A stretch of 64,000 nucleotides of DNA, from IMG/VR virus record IMGVR_UViG_3300021959_008125, positions 21,866 through 85,865 of that record; one strand, 5' to 3'. Positions 954-61,715 of this stretch are shown here, one piece after another. Below the pieces are notes generated by a model, which saw nothing but the letters and a program-made list of their open reading frames with translations, had not been told where the DNA came from and did no database searches. The DNA comes from a virus. Both the position numbers and the translations under genes were made by a program. Each line of letters opens with the position of its first letter. The stretch's first letter is position 1.

Positions 954-1750
954 GAATAGCAGTACTATTAAGCGGTCAAGTAAGAGATTGGATGGTCTGT
1001 AGAGATAACCAAAAGTTCTTTTGGACTTCCTGTACCCAAAAAGACCCTCAAGTAGACTACTTTATACATACATGGGATTATAGTCAAGATAGAACAGGAG
1101 TTACAAAACCTTATCAAAACAGAAATATATCTGAACAAGAATTTGAAGAAATTTTAGATTTTTACCAACCAAAAAAGTATATTATAGAGAGCAAACCTAG
1201 TAAAGATGTATTTTATGATGACCACTGGTGTAACTTATTTTATAGTTTCGTTAAGTCTTTACAGTTTAAAAGAGAGTATGAATTAGAAAATAATTTTAAA
1301 TACGATGTAGTTGTTAAATCGAGATTCGATTTAGCTTTCGATCCAAGATACCATTTCAGGATACCGGTACTTTTTAACAATTGCCTCTATACTACCCACG
1401 GAGGTCCTATGGAAATGGAATGCGGTATGTTTAATTTTAACGACTGTGTATTTCTAGGCAATTCTTATTCTATGGATTTACTTATTAACATCTACCATTA
1501 TCGTCAGTTTCTTATAAGAACATTTGAACAAAAAGATTCTCTAACAGATAATCGAAACAGGCCCGGTCACCCATACGGTCCTGGTACTTTAATGCATGAA
1601 TACTTCAGAGATTATGGAATAACACCTATGTTTAATATGGGTTGGCAAGAAACTATAATTAAAGCAGGTCATCCAGAAGGACTTAATTTATTTAAACCTG
1701 AGGAGTTTGATATTATGGAAAAGTATTTTAGAGACTGGTATCTTAATTAA
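950..1750 (+). CDS. Putative glycosyltransferase, SGQ...RxD family (copy 1 of 4)
   Basis: A 266-residue protein that begins with a Rossmann-like strand and the motif LLSGQVRDW, followed by a VDYFIHTWD segment and, near the middle, YDVVVKSRFDLAF. The arrangement (N-terminal nucleotide-sugar-like strand, HTW motif, central RxD) recurs in three other proteins of this window (8230, 16998, 40025). The RxD element could be the metal/nucleotide-sugar motif of a GT-A fold; that is inference. It lies between overlapping sugar genes. No membrane segment is seen. Confidence 0.55.
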   Translation: MRIAVLLSGQVRDWMVCRDNQKFFWTSCTQKDPQVDYFIHTWDYSQDRTGVTKPYQNRNISEQEFEEILDFYQPKKYIIESKPSKDVFYDDHWCNLFYSFVKSLQFKREYELENNFKYDVVVKSRFDLAFDPRYHFRIPVLFNNCLYTTHGGPMEMECGMFNFNDCVFLGNSYSMDLLINIYHYRQFLIRTFEQKDSLTDNRNRPGHPYGPGTLMHEYFRDYGITPMFNMGWQETIIKAGHPEGLNLFKPEEFDIMEKYFRDWYLN

Positions 1751-1751
1751 T

Positions 1752-2687
1752 ATGAAAAAAAAGATTGCTTTTTACTGCTGTACTAATGGATTAGGGCATT
1801 TTAAACGAGTTAATGAAATAGCAAAATATTTAACTGACCTGTTTAAAATTACCATCTATTGTAACCAAGTACAGGCAGAAAAAATTGGGAAGCTTGATAC
1901 CGTAGAGTATATTTTTTACTCTCAAGACAATATAAAATGGAATTTAGTTACTCAAGGCCATGGAAAAAAAGCAATAGATACCTATTTTAACTGGCTACAG
2001 CAATACGGTCCAACAGTTAAACAGTATGATATAGTAGTTTCGGATAATTTAGTAGGATTATGTGATTATGGAAATGTACTTCTAATGGGTTCATTTTTTT
2101 GGAAAGACGTTTTTAATTCATATATAGGTGAAAACCTACTCAGTAAAGTTGATGAACGAATACTTTCTGAGAAACAACCTGTAATTTGTACAAATAAGTA
2201 TGTTGAAACACAATCAATTAAAGAATATCCATTTAAATTTCAATCAGGATTTGGATGTGAACAGCAGCTTAAAGTAGCGAGTGAGACTAAACATACAATT
2301 ATACAGTATCCTAGTTTACCTTATTTAGAAAAGTATAATACATATCTAGATAAATTATTTAGTATACAGGAACTTGGATGTACGAAAAATTTATCGTATA
2401 TTTATGATACTCGTATAATCGCAAGACCTGGAGTTGGTACTATTACTCATTGTGTAGAATATAGAATTCCTTTAATTGCTTTGTACAGTAATAAAGATTC
2501 TGCAGAAATTATAGAACTAGCTCATATAGTTGAAGAATTAAAAATAGGGTACAAACAGAATATAGAGGAATCTTTAGATATGACTAAAATTAAGATGTTG
2601 AGATCAAATACAAATTTTTGTTATGTAGATCCACCTTTCGAACTAAACGGATACAGTAAAATTGCAAATTATATAAAAAAATTATGA
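1752..2687 (+). CDS. GT-B type glycosyltransferase
   Basis: A 311-residue protein when started at the ATG at 1752, directly after the preceding stop; an upstream in-frame ATG at 1707 would add a poorly conserved-looking extension inside the previous gene. The N-terminus (CCTNGLGHFKRVNEIAKYL) is the GxGH acceptor-domain motif of MurG/UDP-glycosyltransferase-like enzymes. The C-terminal RPGVGTITHCVEYRIPLIALY is the donor-binding motif in which the sugar nucleotide is held. It probably adds a sugar from an NDP donor to a glycan. It overlaps the next gene by 4 bases. Confidence 0.75.
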   Translation: MKKKIAFYCCTNGLGHFKRVNEIAKYLTDLFKITIYCNQVQAEKIGKLDTVEYIFYSQDNIKWNLVTQGHGKKAIDTYFNWLQQYGPTVKQYDIVVSDNLVGLCDYGNVLLMGSFFWKDVFNSYIGENLLSKVDERILSEKQPVICTNKYVETQSIKEYPFKFQSGFGCEQQLKVASETKHTIIQYPSLPYLEKYNTYLDKLFSIQELGCTKNLSYIYDTRIIARPGVGTITHCVEYRIPLIALYSNKDSAEIIELAHIVEELKIGYKQNIEESLDMTKIKMLRSNTNFCYVDPPFELNGYSKIANYIKKL

Positions 2688-3454
2688 AAATAGGTATTAT
2701 AGGAAAAGGAGTCGTCGGCACGGCTATCAAAAAAGGTTTTGAGAAAATTAAACACGAAGTAAGTTATCATGATATTAAACATGATACTAAAATACAAGAT
2801 GTATTAAATACTGAAATTATTTATATCTGTGTTGGTACCCCATCGGATAACGAAGGTAATTGTAATATTTCTGCAGTTATTTCTGTGGTAAAAGAATTAA
2901 GTGAATTAGAATACAGAGGAATAGTAGCAATTAAATCTACTGTTAAACCAGGTACTACTTTAAAACTCAAAGAAAAACACCCAGAACTAACTTTATGTTT
3001 TGTACCTGAATTTTTAAGAGAAAGGTGTGCCTATGAAGACTTTGTGTATAATAATAGTGTTTTAGTGGTTGGTACAGATAATGTTGATGTTTATAAAAAG
3101 ATAGTTAAATCTCATGGTGTTTTACCTACACATAAGTTACAGTTATCTATACCTGAAGCAGAATTAATGAAGTATTTCTCTAATACGTATAAAGCGATGA
3201 GAATAACTTTTGCTAATTCTTTTTACAGGCTTGCTAAACATTTTGGTGCTAATTACGATGCAATTAAAGATGCTTTTTTATTCCATGCAGTAGAAGAAGG
3301 ACATTACTTAAGAGTTAATAAAGACTTTGGGTACGGGTATGGCGGAATGTGTTTACCTAAAGATACTAAAGCGATGAAAAAATTAGTAGAAGAGGAAGGA
3401 CTAGACTTAGGTATATTTAAGTTTATCGATGAAGAGAATGATAAATTTGTATGA
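2684..3454 (+). CDS. UDP-glucose/GDP-mannose dehydrogenase family protein, short form
   Basis: NAD-dependent oxidation of a nucleotide sugar to a uronic acid is the usual family reaction. The N-terminal dinucleotide fold is clear (IGIIGKGVVGTAI), the ICVGTPSD and KSTVKPGTT segments are typical, and the catalytic cysteine lies in GGMCLPKD (family GGxCxPKD). At 256 residues it is much shorter than the usual 400 or more: the C-terminal UDP-binding domain is absent. It may therefore use a different substrate or a partner subunit. Cytoplasmic, and overlapping both neighbours by 4 bases. Confidence 0.8.
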   Translation: MKIGIIGKGVVGTAIKKGFEKIKHEVSYHDIKHDTKIQDVLNTEIIYICVGTPSDNEGNCNISAVISVVKELSELEYRGIVAIKSTVKPGTTLKLKEKHPELTLCFVPEFLRERCAYEDFVYNNSVLVVGTDNVDVYKKIVKSHGVLPTHKLQLSIPEAELMKYFSNTYKAMRITFANSFYRLAKHFGANYDAIKDAFLFHAVEEGHYLRVNKDFGYGYGGMCLPKDTKAMKKLVEEEGLDLGIFKFIDEENDKFV

Positions 3455-4308
3455 AAATAATTTCTGGAGAAGCTATTCAAGATTTATGTGGAGTAAGTAT
3501 AAGTAAGCAAGAACATAAACCTTTTGAGAGTAGTAATCAAATAGATTCTATAGATATAGATAATTTTGATTTTGAAAATTTTGACAACCCTTATAAAGTA
3601 TATGTAAACAGTTCTCTCATTAATCGAGTAAAGCCAAAGTTAATTGAATCGAAACTATATGAAAAACTTTCTAAGTTTCAAAACCCTTTCGACCTTATAC
3701 TACATAACTCAGATGACTCTTTTAATGATGCACATCTAAACTTTTTCAATTTACCTAAAGTTAAAAGAATATTTTCACAAAATGTCAACACTACTAATAG
3801 TAAGTTGATTCCTTTACCAATAGGTCTAGCAAACAGTTTTTGGAAGTGGGGCGATAAAGAGTACTTTAAAACAGAATTAAAAGAGCTTATTCCAAAAACT
3901 AAATTTATTCACTTTAACTTTACTGTTTATGATGGCGGGGTAAGAGATGAATATAGACCTCAATGTTATGAAGCTGCTATAAGTAAAGGGTTAGAAACTA
4001 CACCCAGCTTTGAATTTAAAGAATATGTAAAAGAGTTAAAAAAATACAAATACAGCTTAAGCCCTGAAGGTAATGGAATAGATTGTTATAGAATGTGGGA
4101 ATGTTTGTACCTTAAAGTTATACCTATATGCCATAGAAACATTTTAACTGAGTATTTTTCTAAGATTTTTCCTATAGTATTAGTAGACGATTGGAATGAT
4201 TTAGATATAAACTACTTAGAAGAAAATTATGAAAAACTTTCTAATTGGAAAAATTACTACTTGTTAGACTTAGATCTATATCTTAAACATATAAATTTTT
4301 ATGATTAA
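3451..4308 (+). CDS. Exostosin-like glycosyltransferase
   Basis: A 285-residue protein. The C-terminal half contains YKYSLSPEGNGIDCYRMWECLYLKVIPIC, which matches the exostosin-type signature (LSPxGNGIDCxRxWEaLyxGxIPI) found in many phage and protist sugar transferases. The N-terminal half is diverged. It is embedded in the overlapping sugar gene block (4-base overlap upstream, 8-base overlap downstream). The sugar transferred is unknown. Confidence 0.65.
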   Translation: MKIISGEAIQDLCGVSISKQEHKPFESSNQIDSIDIDNFDFENFDNPYKVYVNSSLINRVKPKLIESKLYEKLSKFQNPFDLILHNSDDSFNDAHLNFFNLPKVKRIFSQNVNTTNSKLIPLPIGLANSFWKWGDKEYFKTELKELIPKTKFIHFNFTVYDGGVRDEYRPQCYEAAISKGLETTPSFEFKEYVKELKKYKYSLSPEGNGIDCYRMWECLYLKVIPICHRNILTEYFSKIFPIVLVDDWNDLDINYLEENYEKLSNWKNYYLLDLDLYLKHINFYD

Positions 4309-37427: not shown

Positions 37428-38246
37428 ATGGCAAAAAATGTCGTAGTTAGTCTTTCAGGAGGGATGGACTCCTCTACTCTTTTACTTAGATGTTTATCTG
37501 AGTATGACAATGTAACAGCTTTATCTTTTGATTACGGTCAAAAGCATAGAGTAGAACTTGAAAGAGCACAGTCTTTAGTAGATTATATTAATGAAAATTG
37601 TACTGACGAAAATTGTTTCGGCGGATGCAGAGTTAACTATCAAGTAATTAAGTTAGATGGCTTAGTTAATCTTTTAAACTCTAACCTTGTAGAAGGTGGA
37701 GAAGATGTACCGGAAGGTCATTATGAAGAAGATAACATGAAAGCAACAGTTGTACCTAATAGAAATAAAATCTTTGCTTCTATCACGCAAGCTGTAGCTT
37801 TATCAGCAGCTAATGCTAACGGTTTAGATACCGATATTGCTTTAGGAATTCATGCCGGTGATCATGCTATCTATCCAGACTGTAGACAAGAGTTTAGAGA
37901 TGCAGACGATAATGCATTTAGAATCGGTAACTGGGATGCAGAAAAAGTAGGTTATTTTACTCCTTACTTAGATACTGATAAATTAGGAATTTTAAAAGAT
38001 GGACAAAAATTGGTTAAAGAGTTGGGAATTGAGTTTAATGAAGTTTACAAACGTACTAATACTTCCTATAAGCCTTTTCCTAGCGGGAATAGTGATTATA
38101 AGTCCGCTTCATCTGTTGAGCGAATCGAGGCGTTTATCAACCTCGGTGTGGATGACCCTGTTCAATACGAGGATGAAACTGGACCGGTTGACTATTCAGT
38201 TGCGAAATCTCATGTTGAAAAGCTTTTAGCAGAACACGCAGCATGA
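37428..38246 (+). CDS. queC: 7-cyano-7-deazaguanine (preQ0) synthase
   Basis: A 272-residue ATP-dependent amide-to-nitrile ligase that makes preQ0 from 7-carboxy-7-deazaguanine. The pyrophosphatase loop is VVVSLSGGMDSSTLLLRCL at the N-terminus; VPNRNKIFASITQAVALS and ALGIHAGDHAIYPDCRQEF are typical. In place of the C-terminal zinc site of QueC (TCY...CGxCxxC) the sequence reads NTSYKPFPSGNSDYKSASS, with no cysteine. An insert with three cysteines (CTDENCFGGC) near residue 60 might provide ligands. Other pathway genes are at 51.1-61.7 kb. Confidence 0.9.
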   Translation: MAKNVVVSLSGGMDSSTLLLRCLSEYDNVTALSFDYGQKHRVELERAQSLVDYINENCTDENCFGGCRVNYQVIKLDGLVNLLNSNLVEGGEDVPEGHYEEDNMKATVVPNRNKIFASITQAVALSAANANGLDTDIALGIHAGDHAIYPDCRQEFRDADDNAFRIGNWDAEKVGYFTPYLDTDKLGILKDGQKLVKELGIEFNEVYKRTNTSYKPFPSGNSDYKSASSVERIEAFINLGVDDPVQYEDETGPVDYSVAKSHVEKLLAEHAA

Positions 38247-41168: not shown

Positions 41169-41361
41169 AAGACATATAGCAAAAACTATTTCATGGAGAA
41201 TCATAGGTACTTTAGATACTATGATACTTTCTGCTATTATAACTGGTAGTTGGAAAATAGGGCTCACCATAGGAGGTATAGAAGTTATTACTAAAATGGT
41301 ACTTTACTTTTTGCATGAAAGAGCATGGTATAAGTTTTCTAAATTTGGACTAAAAAAATGA
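41155..41361 (+). CDS. DUF2061-type small membrane protein
   Basis: A 68-residue protein with hydrophobic segments on both sides of a short charged turn. KRHIAKTISWRIIGTLDTMI and the closing FLHERAWYKFSKFG are the DUF2061 hallmarks. In bacteria I recall this family near sulfate-activation genes such as cysC, which would fit the APS kinase three genes upstream; that link is from memory and not certain. It overlaps both neighbours. Confidence 0.75.
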   Translation: MVSYKRHIAKTISWRIIGTLDTMILSAIITGSWKIGLTIGGIEVITKMVLYFLHERAWYKFSKFGLKK

Positions 41362-43034
41362 TACAATTAGGTATATCAGCATTCTATCACGACGCTGCAG
41401 CATGTATCGTAAAAGACGGTGTAGTAATTGCAGCTGCAGAGGAAGAAAGGTTTACTGAAATTAAACACGATAGCTCTTTTCCGATAAATGCTATTAAATG
41501 GTGTTTAGAATACACAAATTTTAAAATTCAGCATATTGATGAAGTATGTTGGTATGAAAACCCAGAAACTAAAAAAGATAGGGTACTTAAAATATTTAAA
41601 AAACGACCTTTTCGTACATTTTTACTCAAAAGAAAATTTCTAAAAGAATTTGAAGTTAATAACCCAAAGGTACTTTTAGAAGAAATCGGGTATAAAGGTA
41701 AGATTGTATTTACAGAACATCACTTATCACATGCAGCATTTAGTTTTTTAACTAGCCAATATGATGAAGCTGCTATTTTAACTGTGGATGGTGTTGGGGA
41801 GTGGGAAACTATTACTATTTCACATGGTGACGGTACTAAAATCGAGAAAAAATTATCTATAGATTTTCCTAATTCTCTTGGAATGCTTTACTCTACTATA
41901 ACAGCATATTTAGGGTTTAAACCTAACGAAGGTGAATATAAAGTTATGGGGTTAGCACCTTATGGTGATCCTACAAACTATTTTAGCAAATTAGATAAAA
42001 TTTTCACACATACTACCAATAAATTTTGGATAAAACAGAAATACTTTACTTGGGAATATTCCGATAAAGTAATGTTTAATAAAAAATTCTTTAACTTACT
42101 TAAACTACCCCCTCGGCTACCGGAAGATGAACTTACACAGGAACATAAAGATTTAGCAGCAGCATTGCAAAAAATTTATGAAAGAGAATTCTTAAAGTTA
42201 GTAAGAACTGCTAAATTAATAACAGGAAGTAAAAATTTATGTCTAGGTGGAGGTTGCGCTTATAACGGAGTAGCAAATTCTAAAGCATATAAGTATTTTG
42301 AATCTATACATATACCATTTGCACCATCAGATGCTGGTTCTGCGATTGGAGCCTGCTTATATAATTCCAAATCTAAGTTATTGCAAAATAATTCTCCTTA
42401 TTTAGGTCCTGATTATAGTAATAATTATATTTTAAAGTTACTTAAATCATACAGTAGCAGCATTCAATACTTTAAACTATCAGAACAAAAATTACTTGAA
42501 AAAACAGCAGAAATACTAAACAATCAGAACATAGTTGCTTGGTTTCAAGGAAGAATGGAATTTGGAGCAAGAGCCTTAGGTAACAGAAGCATATTAGCTT
42601 CACCTAAAGATGCTAAAATGAGAGAAAAATTAAATTACGTAATTAAAAAAAGAGAAGGATTTAGACCCTTTGCTCCTTCAGTTATAGAAGATAGTGCCTA
42701 TAAGTACTTTCATATTAAGGAACCAGTTCCTTATATGAATCAAGTTGTAAACGCTATAGATTTAGACGGCTTTGCAAGATTTACTAGATTTCCTGCTGCT
42801 ACACATGTGGATAACACATGTAGAGTTCAAACAGTAAATAAAAATTTAAATGAGAGATATTATAAACTTCTTATAGAATTAAAAAGAATATCAGGCTTCC
42901 CTGTAGTACTTAATACTTCGTTTAACTTAAAAGATCAAACTATTACTATGACTCCTAAACAGGCGATAGAAAGGTATTTGAATTCTGAAATTGATTATCT
43001 GGTAATTAATAACTATTTAATAAAAAAGATATGA
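41358..43034 (+). CDS. Carbamoyltransferase (NodU/CmcH family)
   Basis: A 558-residue protein with the two domains of the family. The N-terminal Kae1-like domain starts QLGISAFYHDAAACIVKDG and has FTEHHLSHAAFSF (metal histidines) and AILTVDGVGEW. The C-terminal part has WFQGRMEFGARALGNRSILASP, the YrdC-like carbamoyl-adenylate signature. It transfers a carbamoyl group to a hydroxyl, classically on a sugar (Nod factor, polysaccharides, antibiotics). It closes the second decoration block. Confidence 0.9.
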   Translation: MIQLGISAFYHDAAACIVKDGVVIAAAEEERFTEIKHDSSFPINAIKWCLEYTNFKIQHIDEVCWYENPETKKDRVLKIFKKRPFRTFLLKRKFLKEFEVNNPKVLLEEIGYKGKIVFTEHHLSHAAFSFLTSQYDEAAILTVDGVGEWETITISHGDGTKIEKKLSIDFPNSLGMLYSTITAYLGFKPNEGEYKVMGLAPYGDPTNYFSKLDKIFTHTTNKFWIKQKYFTWEYSDKVMFNKKFFNLLKLPPRLPEDELTQEHKDLAAALQKIYEREFLKLVRTAKLITGSKNLCLGGGCAYNGVANSKAYKYFESIHIPFAPSDAGSAIGACLYNSKSKLLQNNSPYLGPDYSNNYILKLLKSYSSSIQYFKLSEQKLLEKTAEILNNQNIVAWFQGRMEFGARALGNRSILASPKDAKMREKLNYVIKKREGFRPFAPSVIEDSAYKYFHIKEPVPYMNQVVNAIDLDGFARFTRFPAATHVDNTCRVQTVNKNLNERYYKLLIELKRISGFPVVLNTSFNLKDQTITMTPKQAIERYLNSEIDYLVINNYLIKKI

Positions 43035-51143: not shown

Positions 51144-51608
51144 ATGGGAAAATTTCAATCAACAAAAGTATTTGACGGATTCTCTACAGTATTTCGTCAA
51201 TGGAAAGCAGAAACAACACATTGTAAGTATTTACACGGTTACGGAGTATCTTTTAAACTATGGTTTGAAGGAGATCTAGACGAAAGAAATTGGGTATGGG
51301 ACTTTGGCGGTATGAAAAGAGCTAAAGGAAAAATTGACGGTAAGACTCCTAAAGAATGGATGGATTATATGTTTGATCATACCTTTGTAGTAGCTGAAGA
51401 TGATCCGTATCTACAGTCATTTATTAAAATGGATGGTGTAGTAGCTCAAGTAAGAGTTGTTCCTGCAACAGGAGCAGAAAGATTCGCACAGTTTATCTAT
51501 GATAAAATTAATCCTTTTATTGAAGAAGAAACTGAAGGAAGAGTAAAAATTACAAGAGTAGAATTTAGAGAGCACGGTAAAAATTCAGCGATATATGAGC
51601 CTAGGTAG
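51144..51608 (+). CDS. queD: 6-carboxytetrahydropterin synthase
   Basis: A 154-residue member of the 6-pyruvoyl-tetrahydropterin synthase/QueD family, converting dihydroneopterin triphosphate to 6-carboxytetrahydropterin. THCKYLHGYGVSFKLWFEG carries the catalytic cysteine and zinc histidines (family CxxxHGHxY; the second His is Tyr here). WVWDFGGMKRAKGKI is the conserved DF segment, MFDHTFVVAEDDP the catalytic Asp-His region, and VKITRVEFREHGKNSA the closing strand with the substrate glutamate. It overlaps queE by 14 bases. Confidence 0.88.
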   Translation: MGKFQSTKVFDGFSTVFRQWKAETTHCKYLHGYGVSFKLWFEGDLDERNWVWDFGGMKRAKGKIDGKTPKEWMDYMFDHTFVVAEDDPYLQSFIKMDGVVAQVRVVPATGAERFAQFIYDKINPFIEEETEGRVKITRVEFREHGKNSAIYEPR

Positions 51609-52371
51609 AATAGAAGATTACGATAAAGGGCTACCTGTAGTAGAAGTTTATACAGCAGTACAGTCAGAAGGAAGTCGTCAAGGTTATCCTACGGTTGTTA
51701 TTAGAACTACCGGATGTACTCACAGATGTTACTTTGGTGAAGGCGGATGGTGTGATAGCTGGTATACCTCTATTCATCCGGAAAAAGGTAAATATACTTT
51801 TAACGACATTATTAAAAAGTATGATGAAAATCCTCATATATCTGAAATGATGCTAACTGGTGGGTCTCCTACAATGCACCCTAAGCTTGTAAATGAATTA
51901 ACTCACTTTGCTCACGAAAGAGGAATCTTTATTACAATAGAAACTGAAGGAAGTCATTTCTTAGAAACAGATTATCCTATTAATCTCTTATCTATTAGTC
52001 CTAAGTTTTCTAATTCTATTCCTAAAATAGGTGTTTTAACCCCTCAAGGTAGAGAAACTAATCAAAAGATGATAGATAAACATAACAGCTTAAGACTTAA
52101 TTTAGATGCTATTAAGAAATCTATAGAATATCACGATGATTATCATATTAAACCAGTATTGGATAAGAACCTAACGATCTATGGGGAGGTATGGAAATTT
52201 CTAGATGAGTTACAAATTCCTAACGATAAAGTATGGTGTATGCCTGCTGGAGATGATAGAGAATCACTGATGGAAAGTTATCCAGTAGTTATGGATTTTG
52301 TGAGAGATAAAGGATATAGATTTACTGGTAGATCCCACATAATGGCATTTGATACACAGAGAGAAGTTTGA
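51595..52371 (+). CDS. queE: 7-carboxy-7-deazaguanine synthase (radical SAM)
   Basis: A 258-residue radical SAM enzyme that contracts carboxytetrahydropterin to 7-carboxy-7-deazaguanine. VEVYTAVQSEGSRQGYPTVVIRTTGCTHRCYFGEGGWCDS contains the cluster cysteines; the spacing between the second and third cysteine is widened, as in diverged QueE proteins. MMLTGGSPTMHP is the SAM-binding GGxP motif and LLSISPKFSNS the conserved SPK segment. It is next to queD as in many bacterial operons. Confidence 0.88.
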   Translation: MSLGRIEDYDKGLPVVEVYTAVQSEGSRQGYPTVVIRTTGCTHRCYFGEGGWCDSWYTSIHPEKGKYTFNDIIKKYDENPHISEMMLTGGSPTMHPKLVNELTHFAHERGIFITIETEGSHFLETDYPINLLSISPKFSNSIPKIGVLTPQGRETNQKMIDKHNSLRLNLDAIKKSIEYHDDYHIKPVLDKNLTIYGEVWKFLDELQIPNDKVWCMPAGDDRESLMESYPVVMDFVRDKGYRFTGRSHIMAFDTQREV

Positions 52372-52532: not shown

Positions 52533-52738
52533 CAAAAGAACTTTACAAAATGTTAAAAACATCTGCAGAAGCAGATAAAGCAAAAGCATTACTATCATTA
52601 GAGTTATTAGGAAATAAAGCTGTAGGTATTGGAGATCATTCCACAGAAGATTTTTATAATAATGCAGAAGAAGCTTTAATTAAACTGGTGGATGCTGATG
52701 ATAGGTTAAATACTTTAGATAAGTACTTTAAAAAGTGA
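52529..52738 (+). CDS. Hypothetical small protein
   Basis: A 69-residue helical protein (KTSAEADKAKALLSLELLGN at the start, ADDRLNTLDKYF at the end). It overlaps both neighbours by 4 bases. Not recognised. Confidence 0.55.
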   Translation: MTKELYKMLKTSAEADKAKALLSLELLGNKAVGIGDHSTEDFYNNAEEALIKLVDADDRLNTLDKYFKK

Positions 52739-52992
52739 GTCATATTATAGGAAATAAATGTGTTGGCGTCAAAGATGGCGTCTGTATAGAAGTTTGCCCT
52801 ATTGATAACTGTATTGTCGAAGGTGAAACCTCAATGTATATTAACCCAGAAACTTGCATAGATTGTGGAGCTTGCATATGGGAATGTCCTGTAGAAGCTA
52901 TTTATGACAGTGAGGATGAAGCCATTTCAGCCGGCGAAGAAGACGCAGTCCACAAAAATTATGAGTTTTTCGGATTTAAATTCAATAGTTAA
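52735..52992 (+). CDS. Ferredoxin, two-cluster type
   Basis: An 85-residue iron-sulfur protein with GTG start. Two cysteine groups are present: CVGVKDGVCIEVCPIDNC near the N-terminus and CIDCGACIWECP in the centre, as in 7Fe/8Fe ferredoxins. It carries low-potential electrons. It lies close to the radical SAM gene queE, so it may reduce QueE or another enzyme of the phage; that is inference from proximity. Confidence 0.85.
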   Translation: MSHIIGNKCVGVKDGVCIEVCPIDNCIVEGETSMYINPETCIDCGACIWECPVEAIYDSEDEAISAGEEDAVHKNYEFFGFKFNS

Positions 52993-53279
52993 TGACATTT
53001 CAAGAAATTATTAAGAATTGCCCTACAGTAGATTATTCTTCTATTTATGTTTTTATAGGAGAAGATTGCGTATGGGATTATAAAGAAGGAGATAAGAGTA
53101 TAATGCTTATTTCTGAGCAGCCCTGCATAGATGACGAAAACGTTACTTTAGCCGAGCTAATAAATTATTCTAAAGAGTTGGAAACTCCAGAAGATTTTCT
53201 TACTTTAGAATGTGAATATGAAAGACAAGAATTAAATTCGTTTGAATGGTTAGAAAACAAACTTATATTGTCCTTTTAG
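52992..53279 (+). CDS. Hypothetical acidic protein
   Basis: A 95-residue acidic protein sharing its first base with the ferredoxin's last. It contains YIFIG-like strands (SSIYVFIGEDCVWDYKEGDK) and a helical end. Its 3' end overlaps the lipoprotein nuclease gene by 34 bases. Not recognised. Confidence 0.5.
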   Translation: MTFQEIIKNCPTVDYSSIYVFIGEDCVWDYKEGDKSIMLISEQPCIDDENVTLAELINYSKELETPEDFLTLECEYERQELNSFEWLENKLILSF

Positions 53280-53857
53280 GACTACTTGCACTAGGCTGCA
53301 CTAAACCAGAGCCAGCATTATCCCAAGAACTTAGAGAAAGAGTAGAATTCAGTATAGATGGATTATTTTCCGGAGTATACTCTGAAGTATTAGAACAGCC
53401 ACTAGAGGTAACTTACATAGTACCATGCCCGGATGGAGATGCATCCAGAACAGGATTAGACTTCTACGAAGACGCAAACATTCATACATCAGATGATGAT
53501 GATTATAGAAATAATGTTTGGGATAAAGGACATTTAGCTCCAGCAGCAGCATTCTCTTGTGATAGAGAAACAATTAAAAAAACTTTTACTTATTTAAATT
53601 CAGCTTTACAGCACCAGTCTTTAAATAGAGGTGCCTGGAACAGATTAGAATCTGTCGAGAGAGGAATGGCCATTTGGCATGAAGTAGAAGTCAAAATAGA
53701 AGTTATATTTGATGAAAACAGTCAGGTTCTACCTTCAGGTGCTACAGTACCTAGAGCATTTAGGAAAACTATTAAAGCTGGGGACGTCACTAAAGTATTT
53801 TACTTCCCTAATATTGATACATCCGGAACGGATTGGGAAGATTACTTAATCCAATAA
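53246..53857 (+). CDS. Lipoprotein DNA/RNA non-specific endonuclease
   Basis: A 203-residue nuclease of the EndoG/NucA type. VWDKGHLAPAAAFSCD is the DRGH-like active site (Lys for Arg), with the general-base histidine, and YLNSALQHQSLNRGAWNRLE is the metal-binding N...N..W..LE helix. The N-terminus (TYIVLLGLLALGCTKPEP) is a lipoprotein signal with lipobox LALGC, so the enzyme would be tethered in the cell envelope. It could degrade incoming DNA or scavenge nucleotides. The start lies inside the previous gene. Confidence 0.8.
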   Translation: MVRKQTYIVLLGLLALGCTKPEPALSQELRERVEFSIDGLFSGVYSEVLEQPLEVTYIVPCPDGDASRTGLDFYEDANIHTSDDDDYRNNVWDKGHLAPAAAFSCDRETIKKTFTYLNSALQHQSLNRGAWNRLESVERGMAIWHEVEVKIEVIFDENSQVLPSGATVPRAFRKTIKAGDVTKVFYFPNIDTSGTDWEDYLIQ

Positions 53858-53858
53858 T

Positions 53859-54032
53859 ATGCCAGAAAAAGAATTTATTGATTGGTTCAAAGGCTTTGCC
53901 GAAGGAGCCCATCATTTTAATATTTCTCCAAAGCAATGGGAGGAATTGAAAGAAAAACTATCGTCCGTTGGGAAGGAATCTAGTAATAATTATGTAATCG
54001 ATAATAATTACTGGACAACAACGATAGCTTAA
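53859..54032 (+). CDS. Small protein, 57 residues
   Basis: Frame from ATG 53859 to TAA 54030-54032, 1 base after the nuclease stop and 9 bases before the receptor gene. The sequence (EFIDWFKGFAEGAHHFNISP, then QWEELKEKL) is helical and aromatic, like small phage proteins that bind partners. Not recognised. Confidence 0.5.
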   Translation: MPEKEFIDWFKGFAEGAHHFNISPKQWEELKEKLSSVGKESSNNYVIDNNYWTTTIA

Positions 54033-54041
54033 AGGTTATAT

Positions 54042-56576
54042 ATGTTTAATTTTAATTTATTTATGATGAGAAATCTCATTTTAACTCTGTTAGGTTTACT
54101 AACAGTTGGAGCTTACGCTCAAGAAAGCGCTGTAAATGACACAATCGTTACACAGCAGTTAGAAGAAGTTGTAGTCTCTTCAAGAGTTATTGACGTTGCT
54201 AAAGCACGTGTTACTCCTGTAGCAGTATCAACAATTTCAGCTAGCGACATTTCGTTGAAAGTAGGTAACTTAGAGTTTCCTGAAATCATGAACAGCACAC
54301 CTGGTGTGTATGCTACAAAACAAGGCGGTGGATATGGGGACTCTCGTATCTCATTACGTGGTTTTGATCAGCGTAACACTTCTTTCCTTATCAATGGACA
54401 ACCAGTTAACGATATGGAAAACGGATGGGTGTATTGGTCAAACTGGCAAGGATTAACCGATGTTGCTTCAGGTATCCAAATCCAAAGAGGATTGGGCGCT
54501 TCAAGGTTAGCAGTACCTTCTGTAGGTGGAACAGTATCCATCTTCACAAAAGCTGCAAGTAAAGATGAAGGAGGATCATTTACTCAAGTAATCGGAAATG
54601 ATGGCTACACTAAAACAACAGCAGCCTACAACACCGGTAAAAACGAGAACGGATGGGCAACTTCTGTTTTATTAAGTAAATGGGCTGGAGACGGTTACAT
54701 TTATAATACATCCGGAGAAGGATGGACTTACTTCTTTGCATTAGGATATGCACCAGAAGATTCTAATCACGCTCTTAACTTATCAGTTTTAGGTGCAGGA
54801 CAATGGCACCACCAAAGAGATGTTTGGGTATCTATTAGAGATTACCAAAACTTCGGAGAAGAAGGAATTGATAGAAGATGGAATTCAAATGGTGGAATTT
54901 TAAATGGAGAAGAATATTCTTTAAGAAGAAACTTCTACAACAAACCATTAGCTACATTGAACTGGGATTGGGATATTTCTGAGAACGTTCAATTAAACAC
55001 TTCTTTCTACGCTTCAGCAGGTAGAGGTGGAGGAACAGGACCTAGAGGTAATAACTTTAGAGGTTCAGCAACAGATATCTTACCTTTTAGAAAAGATCTA
55101 ACTGAGCATTACTTAGAAAATGGTAGAGGTTCAAGATTGGCTAATGGATTTATTGATTTTGATGCTATTGTTGCTTCTAACAGAAATACGACTGATCCTT
55201 ATACTGGAGATATTTCTAGATTTGCTGGTCAAAAAATTGGTTCTAATGGATTTAGAGATGATGGAGTAAATAGAGTAGCTTTAATTAGAAGAGCTTCTAT
55301 GAACTCTCATGACTGGGTAGGTGCAATTTCGTCTTTAGATATTACTTCTGGTAATTTTAAATACTCTTTAGGAGTTGATCTTAGAAACTACACTGGGTAT
55401 CATTACCGAGTAGTTAACGATCTATTAGGATTAGATGGTTATTATTCAACAGGTAACAAGAACTCTGCTGGTCAGATTATTGAAACAACAGTTGAAGCAA
55501 ACCCATTCAAGAACACTGGAATTAGAGGACCTAAAATCGACTACTATAATATCGGTAAAGTAGGTTGGCAAGGTGTTAACGGTTTAGTTGAATATAACAA
55601 CTCTACCTTATCTGCAGTATTACAAGCAGGTCTATCTAACCAATCATTCCAAAGAATAGACTACTTTGATCAACCTGGTAATCCAGAATCTGATGTACAA
55701 AATCAAGGAGGAGGATATGTTAAAGGTGGTGCTAACTATAACTTAGATGAAAAATCTAATGTATTCTTTAATGCAGGTTATATCTCTAGACAGCCACAAT
55801 TTGACGCAGTATTCCCTAACTATGCAAATAACATCAATCCAGATCTACAAAACGAAGAAATTCAATCAGTAGAATTTGGGTATGGATTTATTACAAATAA
55901 GTTAAAATTAAACGTAAACGTTTACTCTACAAACTGGGGTAATAGATTTGTTACAAGAAACTTATCTAACCAGCAAGGAGTAGATGGATTCGCACAATTT
56001 AAAGATATCGATGTTACTCACAACGGTATTGAAATTGAAGGAACTTATAGTTTATCTTATAAAACTAAGTTTAAAGGAATGTTATCAATTGGTGACTGGA
56101 CTTATGATCAAAACTTTGAAGCTGAATTATTTGACGATAATCAGCAATCAATCGGTACTGGAACTCTTTATACTAAAGGAGCTAAAGTTGGTGATGCAGC
56201 ACAATTCGTTGCTAACCTAGCAGTTGATCAAAACTTAGGAAGATTAGGTAAGTTAGATCTTAACTATAGATTCGTAGATGGTTTATATGCTGACTACTCG
56301 ATTACAGATTCAGCATTTACTTCACCAGATAACGATGGTGCGTTAAAACTACCTTCTTACGGTATTGTAGACCTAGGATATACAAAATACTTCGGAAGTA
56401 AATTAAGCTTCAGAGCGAATGTAAATAACGTGTTAGACACAACTTATATTGCTGAGTCTAACTCTAATATTCATGCAGGAGCAGGCTCAACTACATGGAA
56501 TGGAATCGATGTAAGAAACTCAGTATGGTTCGGATTTGGAAGAACTTTCAATGCGTCTCTTAAATATAGATTCTAA
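54042..56576 (+). CDS. TonB-dependent outer-membrane receptor
   Basis: A full-length receptor of 844 residues (837 if the better signal peptide start at 54063 is used: MMRNLILTLLGLLTVGAYAQ). After the signal, LEEVVVSSR is the start of the plug region, with FPEIMNSTPGVYATKQGGG, RISLRGFDQRN and GLGASRLAVPSVGGTVSI as plug motifs. The rest is a beta barrel that ends NASLKYRF with the terminal phenylalanine. It would import a large or scarce nutrient across the outer membrane using TonB. It stands among phage genes on the same strand and is closed by a strong terminator. Confidence 0.92.
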   Translation: MFNFNLFMMRNLILTLLGLLTVGAYAQESAVNDTIVTQQLEEVVVSSRVIDVAKARVTPVAVSTISASDISLKVGNLEFPEIMNSTPGVYATKQGGGYGDSRISLRGFDQRNTSFLINGQPVNDMENGWVYWSNWQGLTDVASGIQIQRGLGASRLAVPSVGGTVSIFTKAASKDEGGSFTQVIGNDGYTKTTAAYNTGKNENGWATSVLLSKWAGDGYIYNTSGEGWTYFFALGYAPEDSNHALNLSVLGAGQWHHQRDVWVSIRDYQNFGEEGIDRRWNSNGGILNGEEYSLRRNFYNKPLATLNWDWDISENVQLNTSFYASAGRGGGTGPRGNNFRGSATDILPFRKDLTEHYLENGRGSRLANGFIDFDAIVASNRNTTDPYTGDISRFAGQKIGSNGFRDDGVNRVALIRRASMNSHDWVGAISSLDITSGNFKYSLGVDLRNYTGYHYRVVNDLLGLDGYYSTGNKNSAGQIIETTVEANPFKNTGIRGPKIDYYNIGKVGWQGVNGLVEYNNSTLSAVLQAGLSNQSFQRIDYFDQPGNPESDVQNQGGGYVKGGANYNLDEKSNVFFNAGYISRQPQFDAVFPNYANNINPDLQNEEIQSVEFGYGFITNKLKLNVNVYSTNWGNRFVTRNLSNQQGVDGFAQFKDIDVTHNGIEIEGTYSLSYKTKFKGMLSIGDWTYDQNFEAELFDDNQQSIGTGTLYTKGAKVGDAAQFVANLAVDQNLGRLGKLDLNYRFVDGLYADYSITDSAFTSPDNDGALKLPSYGIVDLGYTKYFGSKLSFRANVNNVLDTTYIAESNSNIHAGAGSTTWNGIDVRNSVWFGFGRTFNASLKYRF

Positions 56577-56592
56577 TATTGAAAAAAAAATT

Positions 56593-56622
56593 AAGGGGAG
56601 CTTTTTAGCTCCCTTTTTTTTT
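56593..56622 (+). terminator. Intrinsic terminator after receptor gene
   Basis: GGGAGCT / AGCTCCC, a perfect 7-base stem with TTTT loop, extended by A-U pairs and followed by nine Ts. Confidence 0.9.
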
Positions 56623-56636: not shown

Positions 56637-57056
56637 ATGAAAGAAAAGGTTTATTTATCATGGAATTGGGTAGATCAACAAGTTATGACTCTTGGGGAGA
56701 CTATCAAAGAATCAGTCAGTGAATTTTTATACGTAACAGGCATTCCAAGAGGAGGTTTAATCCCTGGAGCATACCTTTCACATTATTTAGGAATAAAATA
56801 CATTCCATATGCTGATGCAAAACAGCTTCCTATAAGTCTTAGAAAACAAGTTTTAGTAATAGACGATATCTGTGATAGCGGTATGACTTTATTAGAAGCT
56901 ACAGAATACGGATTCCAGACAGCAGCTTTAGCATACAGATACTCTTCTCCCTATATGCCTGAATGGTATTCAGAAAAAATAGAAGATGATAGATGGCTTG
57001 TATTTCCATGGGAAAGAGTAGATTCAAAAACAATACAAGATTATTTGGATAATTGA
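56637..57056 (+). CDS. Phosphoribosyltransferase family protein
   Basis: A 139-residue protein. QVLVIDDICDSGMTLLEA is the PRPP-binding signature of type I phosphoribosyltransferases (VxVxDDxxxTGxT, with Ser for Thr), preceded by the VTGIPRGGLIPGAYLSH substrate-side loop. It would salvage a nucleobase or act as a related regulator. It lies between the receptor and folE, in a genome rich in purine-derived modification genes. Confidence 0.8.
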   Translation: MKEKVYLSWNWVDQQVMTLGETIKESVSEFLYVTGIPRGGLIPGAYLSHYLGIKYIPYADAKQLPISLRKQVLVIDDICDSGMTLLEATEYGFQTAALAYRYSSPYMPEWYSEKIEDDRWLVFPWERVDSKTIQDYLDN

Positions 57057-57118: not shown

Positions 57119-57787
57119 ATGAGTAAAGATTTAGAATTAGTAAAAGTAGGTTATGCCAACGGAGTTGCTCCTGGCTTTCCTCTAACAGAAGATGAAAAAT
57201 GGAAAATGGTCGAACTAGCGGCTGAAAAGTATGGAGAGTTTCTCGATGCTTTAGGTTGTGATTGGCGTAATGATCCTAATTCGGCTGATACTCCTAGAAG
57301 AGTAGCTAAAGCCTATGCATTCGATCTATGGAAAGGTAGATACGATGCTATGACTGATATAACAGCATTTCCTTCTGACGGTTATAACGGAATCGTTCAG
57401 GAGTCTAATATCCCGGTGACATCGATGTGTAGCCATCACCATCAGACTATTGGTGGTCGTGTGAGTATCGCTTATGTACCGTCTGAGAATGGTAAAGTAG
57501 TAGGTCTGTCTAAACTCAACCGAATCGTCGAGCATTTCGGTAGAAGAGGTGCTATACAAGAGCAGCTTACTGTAGCCATTCATAATGCAATCGATAAGAT
57601 TTGCGAAGGTAACTTAGGTGTAGCGGTAATGATCGATGCTACCCATAACTGTGTTAGCTGTAGAGGTGTTAAACATCACGGTGCTTCAATGCAAACAGCT
57701 AAACTATCAGGATGCTTCTTAAATGAAGATTCAGCGAGAGCGGAGTTTTACAAGAATATTGAACTAGCAGGAAAATGCAGATCGTAG
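57119..57787 (+). CDS. folE: GTP cyclohydrolase I
   Basis: A 222-residue enzyme that converts GTP to dihydroneopterin triphosphate, the first step toward 7-deazaguanines (and folate). VTSMCSHHHQTIGGRVSIAYVP contains the zinc cysteine and histidines, LSKLNRIVEHFGRRGAIQEQLT is the GTP-binding helix region, and THNCVSCRGVKHHGASMQT supplies the second zinc cysteine. Length is normal for the family. It is preceded by the preQ1-like leader and overlaps the cupin gene by 13 bases. Confidence 0.95.
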   Translation: MSKDLELVKVGYANGVAPGFPLTEDEKWKMVELAAEKYGEFLDALGCDWRNDPNSADTPRRVAKAYAFDLWKGRYDAMTDITAFPSDGYNGIVQESNIPVTSMCSHHHQTIGGRVSIAYVPSENGKVVGLSKLNRIVEHFGRRGAIQEQLTVAIHNAIDKICEGNLGVAVMIDATHNCVSCRGVKHHGASMQTAKLSGCFLNEDSARAEFYKNIELAGKCRS

Positions 57788-60288: not shown

Positions 60289-60807
60289 ATGGTAAAAAGA
60301 ATAGCATTAGTTGGAGCAAGTAGTACAGGTAAAACAACTGTTTATGAATTACTTAAGACTAAGCTACCTAAGTATGAATTTGTAAACGAATCTACTAGAA
60401 CAGTAGGTAATTATGGTTTTCCTATTAATGAGGCTGGTACTTCTGAAACTCAATTAGCTATCAGTAGCTTCCATTTAGAAGCATTACTACAACCTTATAA
60501 TCTTGTATTAGACAGATGTTATATGGATCTAGTAGCATACTCTAGATTCATGCCTAATATAAGCAAAGAGACGTTAAAATATATCTTAGATACATGGCAA
60601 AGGGTTAAAAATGAATATACTCATTATGTATATTTTCCTATCGAATTCGACTCTGTTGATGATGGAGTTAGAAGTATTGACGAGCAGTGGAGAAAAGATA
60701 TAGATGATGAGTTTTTTGAGATGCTGCAAGATGTAAGACAACCTTACTTATCTGTTACAGGATCTCCTATGCAAAGAGTAGAACAAATATTAGAATTTAT
60801 AAAATGA
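60289..60807 (+). CDS. P-loop kinase, NadR/AAA_28-like
   Basis: A 172-residue ATPase. The P-loop is GASSTGKTT (residues 9-17), FVNESTRTVGNYGFPINEAGTSETQ fits the family's substrate loop, and NLVLDRCYMDLVAYS is the Walker B/DR segment. This fold includes the kinase domain of NadR and other nucleoside/nucleotide kinases. It is coupled to queF by a 4-base overlap, so phosphorylation of a nucleoside or a precursor in the modification route is possible but not shown. Confidence 0.75.
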   Translation: MVKRIALVGASSTGKTTVYELLKTKLPKYEFVNESTRTVGNYGFPINEAGTSETQLAISSFHLEALLQPYNLVLDRCYMDLVAYSRFMPNISKETLKYILDTWQRVKNEYTHYVYFPIEFDSVDDGVRSIDEQWRKDIDDEFFEMLQDVRQPYLSVTGSPMQRVEQILEFIK

Positions 60808-61715
60808 GTGAAGTTAAAAATTACCAAGAAGTAGTAGAGATTGCATCAAAGCACTTAGGACAAGTCGGAGGAGCTGGTTATTCAGATCAATACAATCCTG
60901 AACTACTAGTAAAAGTTCCTAGATACTTAAACAGAGAGGGTTATGGTTTAACATCAGATAGTTTTTTAGGTGTGGATACCTGGAACTGTTACGAAGTATC
61001 AGCGATTACTACCAAAGGTCAGCCTGTTGCCGGAATGCTTAAAATTGTATGTCCTGCAGATTCGGAGTTTCACGTAGAATCTAAGTCAATTAAGTTATAT
61101 TTAAACTCTTTTAATATGACTCAGATTGGCGATAATGCTGCTGATTGTATTAAAGCTATAGAAGCTACAGTTAAAAGAGATTTAGATGAATTATTAGAAA
61201 CTAATACTACAGTTTCATTTTATGCTTCTAATGATGAAGGTGAGGCTCTATCTTTTGAAGGATATCAAGATTTAGGAGATGTTGTAGATTTAGACCAAAT
61301 AGATTTTACCGCATTTAAGTCTGATGCTTCTCAGTTAATGGTTGAAGATACTGATGATGAAGCTAAAGTAATTAAATTTAAATCTAATCTACTTAGATCT
61401 AATTGTAGAGTTACTAATCAACCAGATTGGGGTGATGTATTTATCTACTTAAAAGGAAAAAAACTACCTGCAGCAGATTCGTTAGCAAAATATATAGTAA
61501 GTCATAGAACAGTAAGTCATTTTCATGAAGAAATATGCGAGATGGTTTACAAACATATATCAGATGCATATGAACCTGAGCAGTTAATGGTTGCTTGTCT
61601 TTATACTAGAAGAGGAGGTTTAGATATTAATCCGATTAGAGCATCTCATTCTATGCTAATACCAGAATTTTTTATTAATCCTGATTATAGAATTACTAAA
61701 ACTTTAAGACAGTAA
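60804..61715 (+). CDS. queF: 7-cyano-7-deazaguanine reductase
   Basis: A 303-residue, two-domain (long) QueF that reduces preQ0 to preQ1 with NADPH. The opening (VPRYLNREGYGL, then GVDTWNCYEVSAITTKGQP) parallels Escherichia coli QueF; ESKSIKLYLNSFN (92-104) is the signature of the first domain. The second domain has the nucleophile C201 and D208 in LRSNCRVTNQPDWGDV and RRGGLDINPIR (269-279). Its presence means that the base offered to DpdA can be preQ1, which is also the substrate needed for formylation. Confidence 0.92.
   Translation: MSEVKNYQEVVEIASKHLGQVGGAGYSDQYNPELLVKVPRYLNREGYGLTSDSFLGVDTWNCYEVSAITTKGQPVAGMLKIVCPADSEFHVESKSIKLYLNSFNMTQIGDNAADCIKAIEATVKRDLDELLETNTTVSFYASNDEGEALSFEGYQDLGDVVDLDQIDFTAFKSDASQLMVEDTDDEAKVIKFKSNLLRSNCRVTNQPDWGDVFIYLKGKKLPAADSLAKYIVSHRTVSHFHEEICEMVYKHISDAYEPEQLMVACLYTRRGGLDINPIRASHSMLIPEFFINPDYRITKTLRQ

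Follow-up and report, generated by a model that had tools for sequence, protein, structure and literature searches.

The locus examined here raises the question of why a phage should carry the gene for a TonB-dependent receptor and, before that, whether the gene is complete and belongs to the phage at all. The DNA analyzed, which we call the window, is a stretch of 64,000 nucleotides within an 85,865-base IMG/VR record, and the receptor is encoded on its plus strand by an uninterrupted ORF of 844 codons at positions 54042–56576.

The window encodes a complete TonB-dependent receptor

The original prediction was of an intact 844-codon frame starting 9 bases after a small gene. The frame is intact, and the 9-base gap is correct for the ORF as listed, but comparison with the related loci L010 and L164 moves the start. 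In the sister phage gene L010, which is 84% identical, the equivalent of position 54042 is a TTG with an in-frame TAA, and the protein begins MRNL, matching the window's ATG at 54066. Because of this, the true start is probably 54066, which would give a gene at 54066–56576, a protein of 836 amino acids, and a gap of 33 bases to the small upstream gene.

From this start, the protein would begin with a signal peptide, MRNLILTLLGLLTVGAYA (54066–54119, plus strand, as are all features of the receptor unit), with a cut before QES predicted by eye from the sequence and by comparison with relatives. It is followed by a TonB-box-like motif, LEEVVVSS (54159–54182), that is retained in phage and bacterial copies, and by a plug domain (54207–54530), which is the most conserved part of the protein in both and matches Pfam Plug (PF07715) at residues 56–163 with an E value of 2.5e-11. 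The beta-barrel (54570–56573) matches TonB_dep_Rec_b-barrel (PF00593) at residues 298–797 with an E value of 1.1e-8, has model strands over residues 177–843, and ends in Phe as the last residue of the protein. Both Pfam matches are above the cut-off, and part of the receptor also matches PHROG 5687 (E value of 5.9e-14), a family with function unassigned in PHROGs. An AlphaFold model (pLDDT 81, pTM 0.81) has a plug and a long-stranded barrel, and the closest solved structures found with Foldseek are PqqU, Fiu, FhuA, and FecA. These are 22-strand receptors, and profile and model together are consistent with a 22-strand barrel in the phage protein. Features of the SusC subfamily were not found, in that a Pfam scan detected no CarboxypepD_reg-like N-terminal domain in the window protein, and Pfam and PHROGs gave no SusD-like match among the scanned neighbours. 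The unit ends with an intrinsic terminator at 56593–56616, with a 10-bp stem and a T tail; a terminator of its own had been predicted for the gene, and the same stem with a different loop is retained in L010. Thus, every element first noted in the protein (signal peptide, plug motifs, barrel, and terminal Phe) was recovered by Pfam, sequence reading, and model, and with the TonB-box-like motif added, the gene reads as that of a complete TonB-dependent receptor.

The arginine codons of 54042–56576 are split along the gene, with CGT dominating in the plug part and AGA used nearly exclusively in the barrel, and L010 has the same split. It is possibly the trace of an old recombination with a host gene; as to a recent recombination with a host, a comparison by segments gave no single matching donor.

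The receptor is an accessory gene at a fixed site in a phage backbone

The prediction that phage genes lie on both sides of the receptor is borne out, with genes in the window for a contractile tail sheath, DnaB helicase, ribonucleotide reductase, and a virion structural protein. A misjoin at either edge of the receptor, which the original prediction named as a check, is excluded, as is chimeric assembly in general: phage contigs L010 and L028, from other metagenomes, share the junctions with the 57-codon gene on the left and the phosphoribosyltransferase gene on the right, and other relatives show the empty site. Cellular contamination of IMG/VR was likewise ruled out for the loci examined, where homologues of the flanks lie almost all in other viral loci. 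The flanks of the best 80 receptor-bearing stretches are mostly one-strand gene clusters that share few homologues with the flanks of 80 bacterial loci, and of 15 receptor-bearing viral records, 10 have a tail sheath or terminase gene on the receptor contig. These 15 records, which are possibly fragments, gave no integrase. We conclude that the receptor gene is real, intact, and truly viral, and that the window phage is a contractile-tailed, probably virulent virus of marine Bacteroidota. Viral context, shared junctions, and a tree with bacterial copies mark the receptor as a host-derived gene in a viral genome and a candidate auxiliary metabolic gene (AMG), which may be expressed in infection and change host metabolism.

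The window also holds a near-complete 7-deazaguanine pathway (QueC, QueD, QueE, FolE/GTP cyclohydrolase I, and QueF-like; 37428–38246, 51144–51608, 51595–52371, 57119–57787, and 60804–61715), suggesting that the DNA of the phage contains a modified base. A Nol-like carbamoyltransferase at 41358–43034 (phrog_1601, E value of 1.9e-118) is possibly another DNA-base or surface modification gene.

Related phages share the gene order QueD, QueE, (ferredoxin), HNS nuclease, 57-codon gene, phosphoribosyltransferase, FolE. The ferredoxin in the window is a small 4Fe-4S ferredoxin-like protein (52735–52992) whose place next to QueE is conserved. In the window, L010, and L028, the receptor lies between the resident 57-codon gene (phrog_28500; 53859–54032, plus strand) and the resident phosphoribosyltransferase gene (PF00156, phrog_8995; 56637–57056, plus strand), and in L070 and similar phages, a receptor, an S1/P1 nuclease, and a kinase fill that same gap. 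The site is occupied in 11 loci and empty in 25 among related phages, where the occupied loci include several near-copies or overlaps and are not 11 independent events. In the phages with an empty site, the 57-codon gene, where found, mostly ends 3–30 bases before the phosphoribosyltransferase gene. The receptor alleles at the site form three identity groups (window/L010; L028; L070/L056/L325/L246), and those included in the tree are placed in different parts of it with bacterial copies between them. Comparison of these loci thus identifies the receptor as an accessory insertion at a fixed site of the phage backbone. The insertion is possibly of the moron type; it has a terminator, relatives show empty sites, and no integrase was found in the phage. 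In a set of 50 phage records chosen by backbone genes, only two have a plug protein, both of the window receptor family; most backbone relatives therefore lack the receptor, and it is not essential.

Upstream of the 57-codon gene is the resident gene for an exported lipoprotein-type DNA/RNA non-specific endonuclease, HNS (53246–53857, plus strand; PF01223, E value of 4.8e-21). Both in the window and in several other phages, the receptor is flanked by genes for exported nucleases, and phages use TonB-dependent receptors such as FhuA as their own receptors, with FhuA being inactivated by the phage protein Cor (PMC11436027). These observations could fit superinfection control, where the receptor acts as bait or saturates the surface and the exported nucleases (the HNS lipoprotein and S1/P1) destroy the DNA that rival phages inject there. 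However, most related phages with the HNS nuclease have no receptor (77 of 80 phage loci, within the stretches examined), and the literature searched held no use of this receptor by phages. We regard superinfection control as the main alternative to nutrient import, though unlikely, and the protein itself speaks further against it, as described below under selection. As an obligatory partner of the receptor, the HNS nuclease was ruled out, the two being together in three of the 80 loci; this type of exported nuclease lipoprotein (53246–53857 in the window; L164–L243) is widespread in phages without the receptor.

That such receptors generally serve phages (PMC11436027) also allows for the receptor being supplied for the phage's own spread, with released membrane or surviving cells that carry it altering the adsorption of progeny. 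We found no evidence that the window phage uses the receptor, and a virulent phage gains little from extra receptor on debris, so we consider this reading very improbable.

One receptor family was captured repeatedly

The search for the gene in related phages, proposed with the original prediction, was successful in L010 and L028 at the same junctions and reached well past them. A scan of IMG/VR gave 429 stretches that encode relatives of the receptor; flanks and contexts were examined for the best 80 of the 429, which look viral by their flanks, and among these 80, the receptor sits in several unrelated phage gene orders. Besides the insertion site described above, its neighbours in other phages are what we take to be clamp loader and IMP-dehydrogenase-like genes and, elsewhere, ribonucleotide reductase.

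In a FastTree phylogeny, phage copies are interspersed with bacterial ones. The label changes 16 times, and well-supported branches force at least 11 of these changes; the count is approximate because at least one row labelled "bacterial" comes from a phage contig within a MAG. This row is L094, a contig labelled Crocinitomicaceae, whose receptor is identical to that of viral L041 and which has the same small minus-strand gene and 2160-aa gene. By this shared content, L094 is a phage contig binned as bacterial. From the interleaving, we conclude that hosts and phages have exchanged the receptor many times. The phylogeny had been proposed as a means of naming the substrate class; the tree gave the interleaving, and the gene neighbours gave two leads to the substrate.

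Bacterial orthologues in marine Bacteroidota reach 78–79% identity to the window receptor. In 14 bacterial genomes chosen for having the receptor, each encodes 16–52 plug proteins and one copy of the window receptor family, at 68–79% identity. A spread sample of 201 Flavobacteriaceae genomes had a copy at 61% identity or more in about six, with relatives at 40–55% or none at threshold in the others, which rules out a universal core gene of the host family. On the phage side, 13 of 14 large receptor-bearing records have one plug protein and one has two. The 252-kb phage record of L009 (G001) encodes, besides the receptor, a different plug-domain protein with a 661-aa open frame (contig 233192–233494). 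Exact short patterns from one sequence, which are weak negatives, found no viral contig with SusC or a paralogous receptor. Together, these data show that many unrelated marine phages repeatedly captured one receptor family out of dozens per host.

Frequent transfer could also mean that the gene is transient cargo, often gained by recombination and lost again, which brings the phage little benefit and spreads the receptor among bacteria. The patchy presence at the insertion site, the many host–phage transfers, and the patchy distribution among the sampled Flavobacteriaceae are as expected for cargo. Cargo would not explain why one family was taken out of the 16–52 plug proteins of a host genome, why the terminator is conserved, why cassette partners are conserved, or the low dN/dS within phage pairs presented below, and we give it little credence, less than superinfection control.

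Neighbouring genes give two leads to the substrate

The receptor often travels with the same partners. S1/P1 nuclease genes (PF02265) adjoin it in 14 of the 15 viral loci where the upstream side is evaluable, and it lies upstream of an AAA_28/thymidylate-kinase-like gene in 51 of 60 loci; many of the loci behind both ratios are related and are not independent counts. The window's own record has no S1/P1 nuclease, which is present at the same site in relatives L070 and L166. In L422, the kinase-like gene instead has upstream of it a receptor only 35% identical to the window's (1687–3948), a hint that a different receptor can take this place in the cassette.

Bacterial contexts vary. Two Arcticimaribacter MAGs (including L088) have the receptor followed by an S1/P1 nuclease and the nucleoside transporter NupC. 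The S1/P1 nuclease was rejected as a general bacterial neighbour, being adjacent only in this pair. Bacterial L097 has the receptor in a glucan locus with SusC, SusD, GH16, and GH17, and in L100, it adjoins GH16. The copies at L097:2165–18080 and in L085 are part of a beta-glucan locus of the laminarin type, together with GH16, GH17, and SusCD. The receptor adjoins a phosphoglucose isomerase gene in 13 of 43 bacterial copies and a recA-like gene in 6 of 43. Structure gave no single ligand, with PDB matches spanning PQQ, siderophore, copper, and citrate receptors. We put nucleic-acid-derived compounds first as substrate, at a probability somewhat short of even; beta-glucan oligosaccharides such as those of laminarin are less probable, and some other substrate is about as probable as these.

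The phage copies are under purifying selection

The original prediction took the intact frame as a sign of selection, and sequence comparison agrees. dN/dS is about 0.06–0.25 in phage receptor pairs with enough divergence and 0.13 between the window and L010, and these low values indicate purifying selection on the phage genes. Site by site, the entropy of 38 phage copies correlates with that of 28 bacterial copies (r = 0.90), and of the 268 positions invariant in bacteria, the window departs at one (W836F). In phage and bacterial copies alike, the conservation of long loops is about that of the strands. Phage pairs have a modestly higher pN/pS in every region (0.05 vs 0.015 in the plug), and therefore, constraint is strong but slightly looser than in bacteria. 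This site-by-site pattern fits a protein that would still bind and import the same ligand as the bacterial copies.

These results bear on the three roles first proposed, which were raised nutrient import, replacement of the host receptor to block superinfection, and a decoy. Raised import is the best fit. An altered replacement or a transport-dead decoy fits poorly since the loops have not diversified and the TonB box and plug are kept; bait or an altered receptor for superinfection control would need neither of the latter to be conserved.

A model for import during infection

The explanation that we favor, and consider reasonably probable, is that the phage carries a working receptor from marine Bacteroidota that would sustain or raise host import during infection. 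The receptor would have been captured from these bacteria and be carried as an accessory unit of leader, gene, and own terminator. A scan of 15 phage records for TonB_C found no such domain, and therefore, the host's export, assembly, and Ton complex would be needed: the host would export the phage-made receptor and insert it into the outer membrane, where host TonB-ExbB-ExbD would energise it. Import of the bacterial counterpart's ligand would then be kept up or raised, so that the outer-membrane step of import stays running while host genes are shut off, and the ligand would supply carbon, nitrogen, phosphorus, or nucleotide precursors for phage replication. Expression, membrane insertion, transport, and benefit are what we infer from the gene and its relatives.

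Retention of the TonB-box-like motif, plug, and loops as in bacteria favors a working importer over a decoy, and repeated capture, sometimes with an exported nuclease, suggests continued feeding of the infected cell and not a stray gene. Against import during infection, the window phage has no S1/P1 nuclease beside its receptor, the bacterial contexts point to different substrates, most backbone relatives do without the receptor, and where the supply of host receptors is not limiting, adding a single gene would not have to increase import. A narrower proposal, which we hold only tentatively and think rather doubtful, is that receptor, exported S1/P1 or HNS nuclease, and nucleotide kinase form a mobile outer-membrane scavenging module that would feed breakdown products of extracellular nucleic acid, perhaps from lysed neighbours, into phage DNA synthesis.

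If import during infection is true, infected marine Bacteroidota would be reprogrammed in what they take up from seawater, with consequences for carbon and phosphorus flow in algal blooms. The phage receptor offers a genetic route to the ligand of this receptor family, and phages may be vehicles that spread it between bacterial orders.

Comparison with known systems

Cyanophages carry uptake genes (PstS and similar) that act in the periplasm with the host ABC transporter. Like the window receptor, PstS is a phage-borne component of host nutrient uptake; the window's is instead an energised outer-membrane receptor. Most uptake genes known from phages encode products that act interior to the outer membrane, whereas here phages carry the energised gate in that membrane.

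The marine megaphage Mar_Mega_1 and LR745206 encode a putative TonB-dependent receptor (SusC), read as raising carbohydrate uptake (PMC9723777). Like the window's, it is a TonB-dependent receptor encoded by a marine phage, with a proposed role in raising uptake during infection, but it is known from one record and one relative, whereas the window receptor is full-length, of a non-SusC family, and captured many times. LR745206 matches the window receptor at 34% over 25% of its length. A single phage "SusC" has thus already been reported, and it was the only prior report in the literature searched. None of these papers described a single receptor family taken up again and again, a site empty in some phages and occupied in others, or the nuclease cassette; repeated capture and the cassette appear to be new.

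The bacterial orthologues (pgi-linked, recA-linked, in the glucan locus, or S1/P1-NupC-linked) have the same per-site constraints as the window receptor. Unlike it, they are chromosomal, and many have a CarboxypepD_reg-like N-terminal extension that the window protein lacks. FhuA with Cor (PMC11436027) or Llp (PDB 8a60) is similar to the window system in being an interplay of phage and TonB-dependent receptor, but in that case, the phage gene product inhibits the receptor, whereas the window phage encodes the receptor itself.
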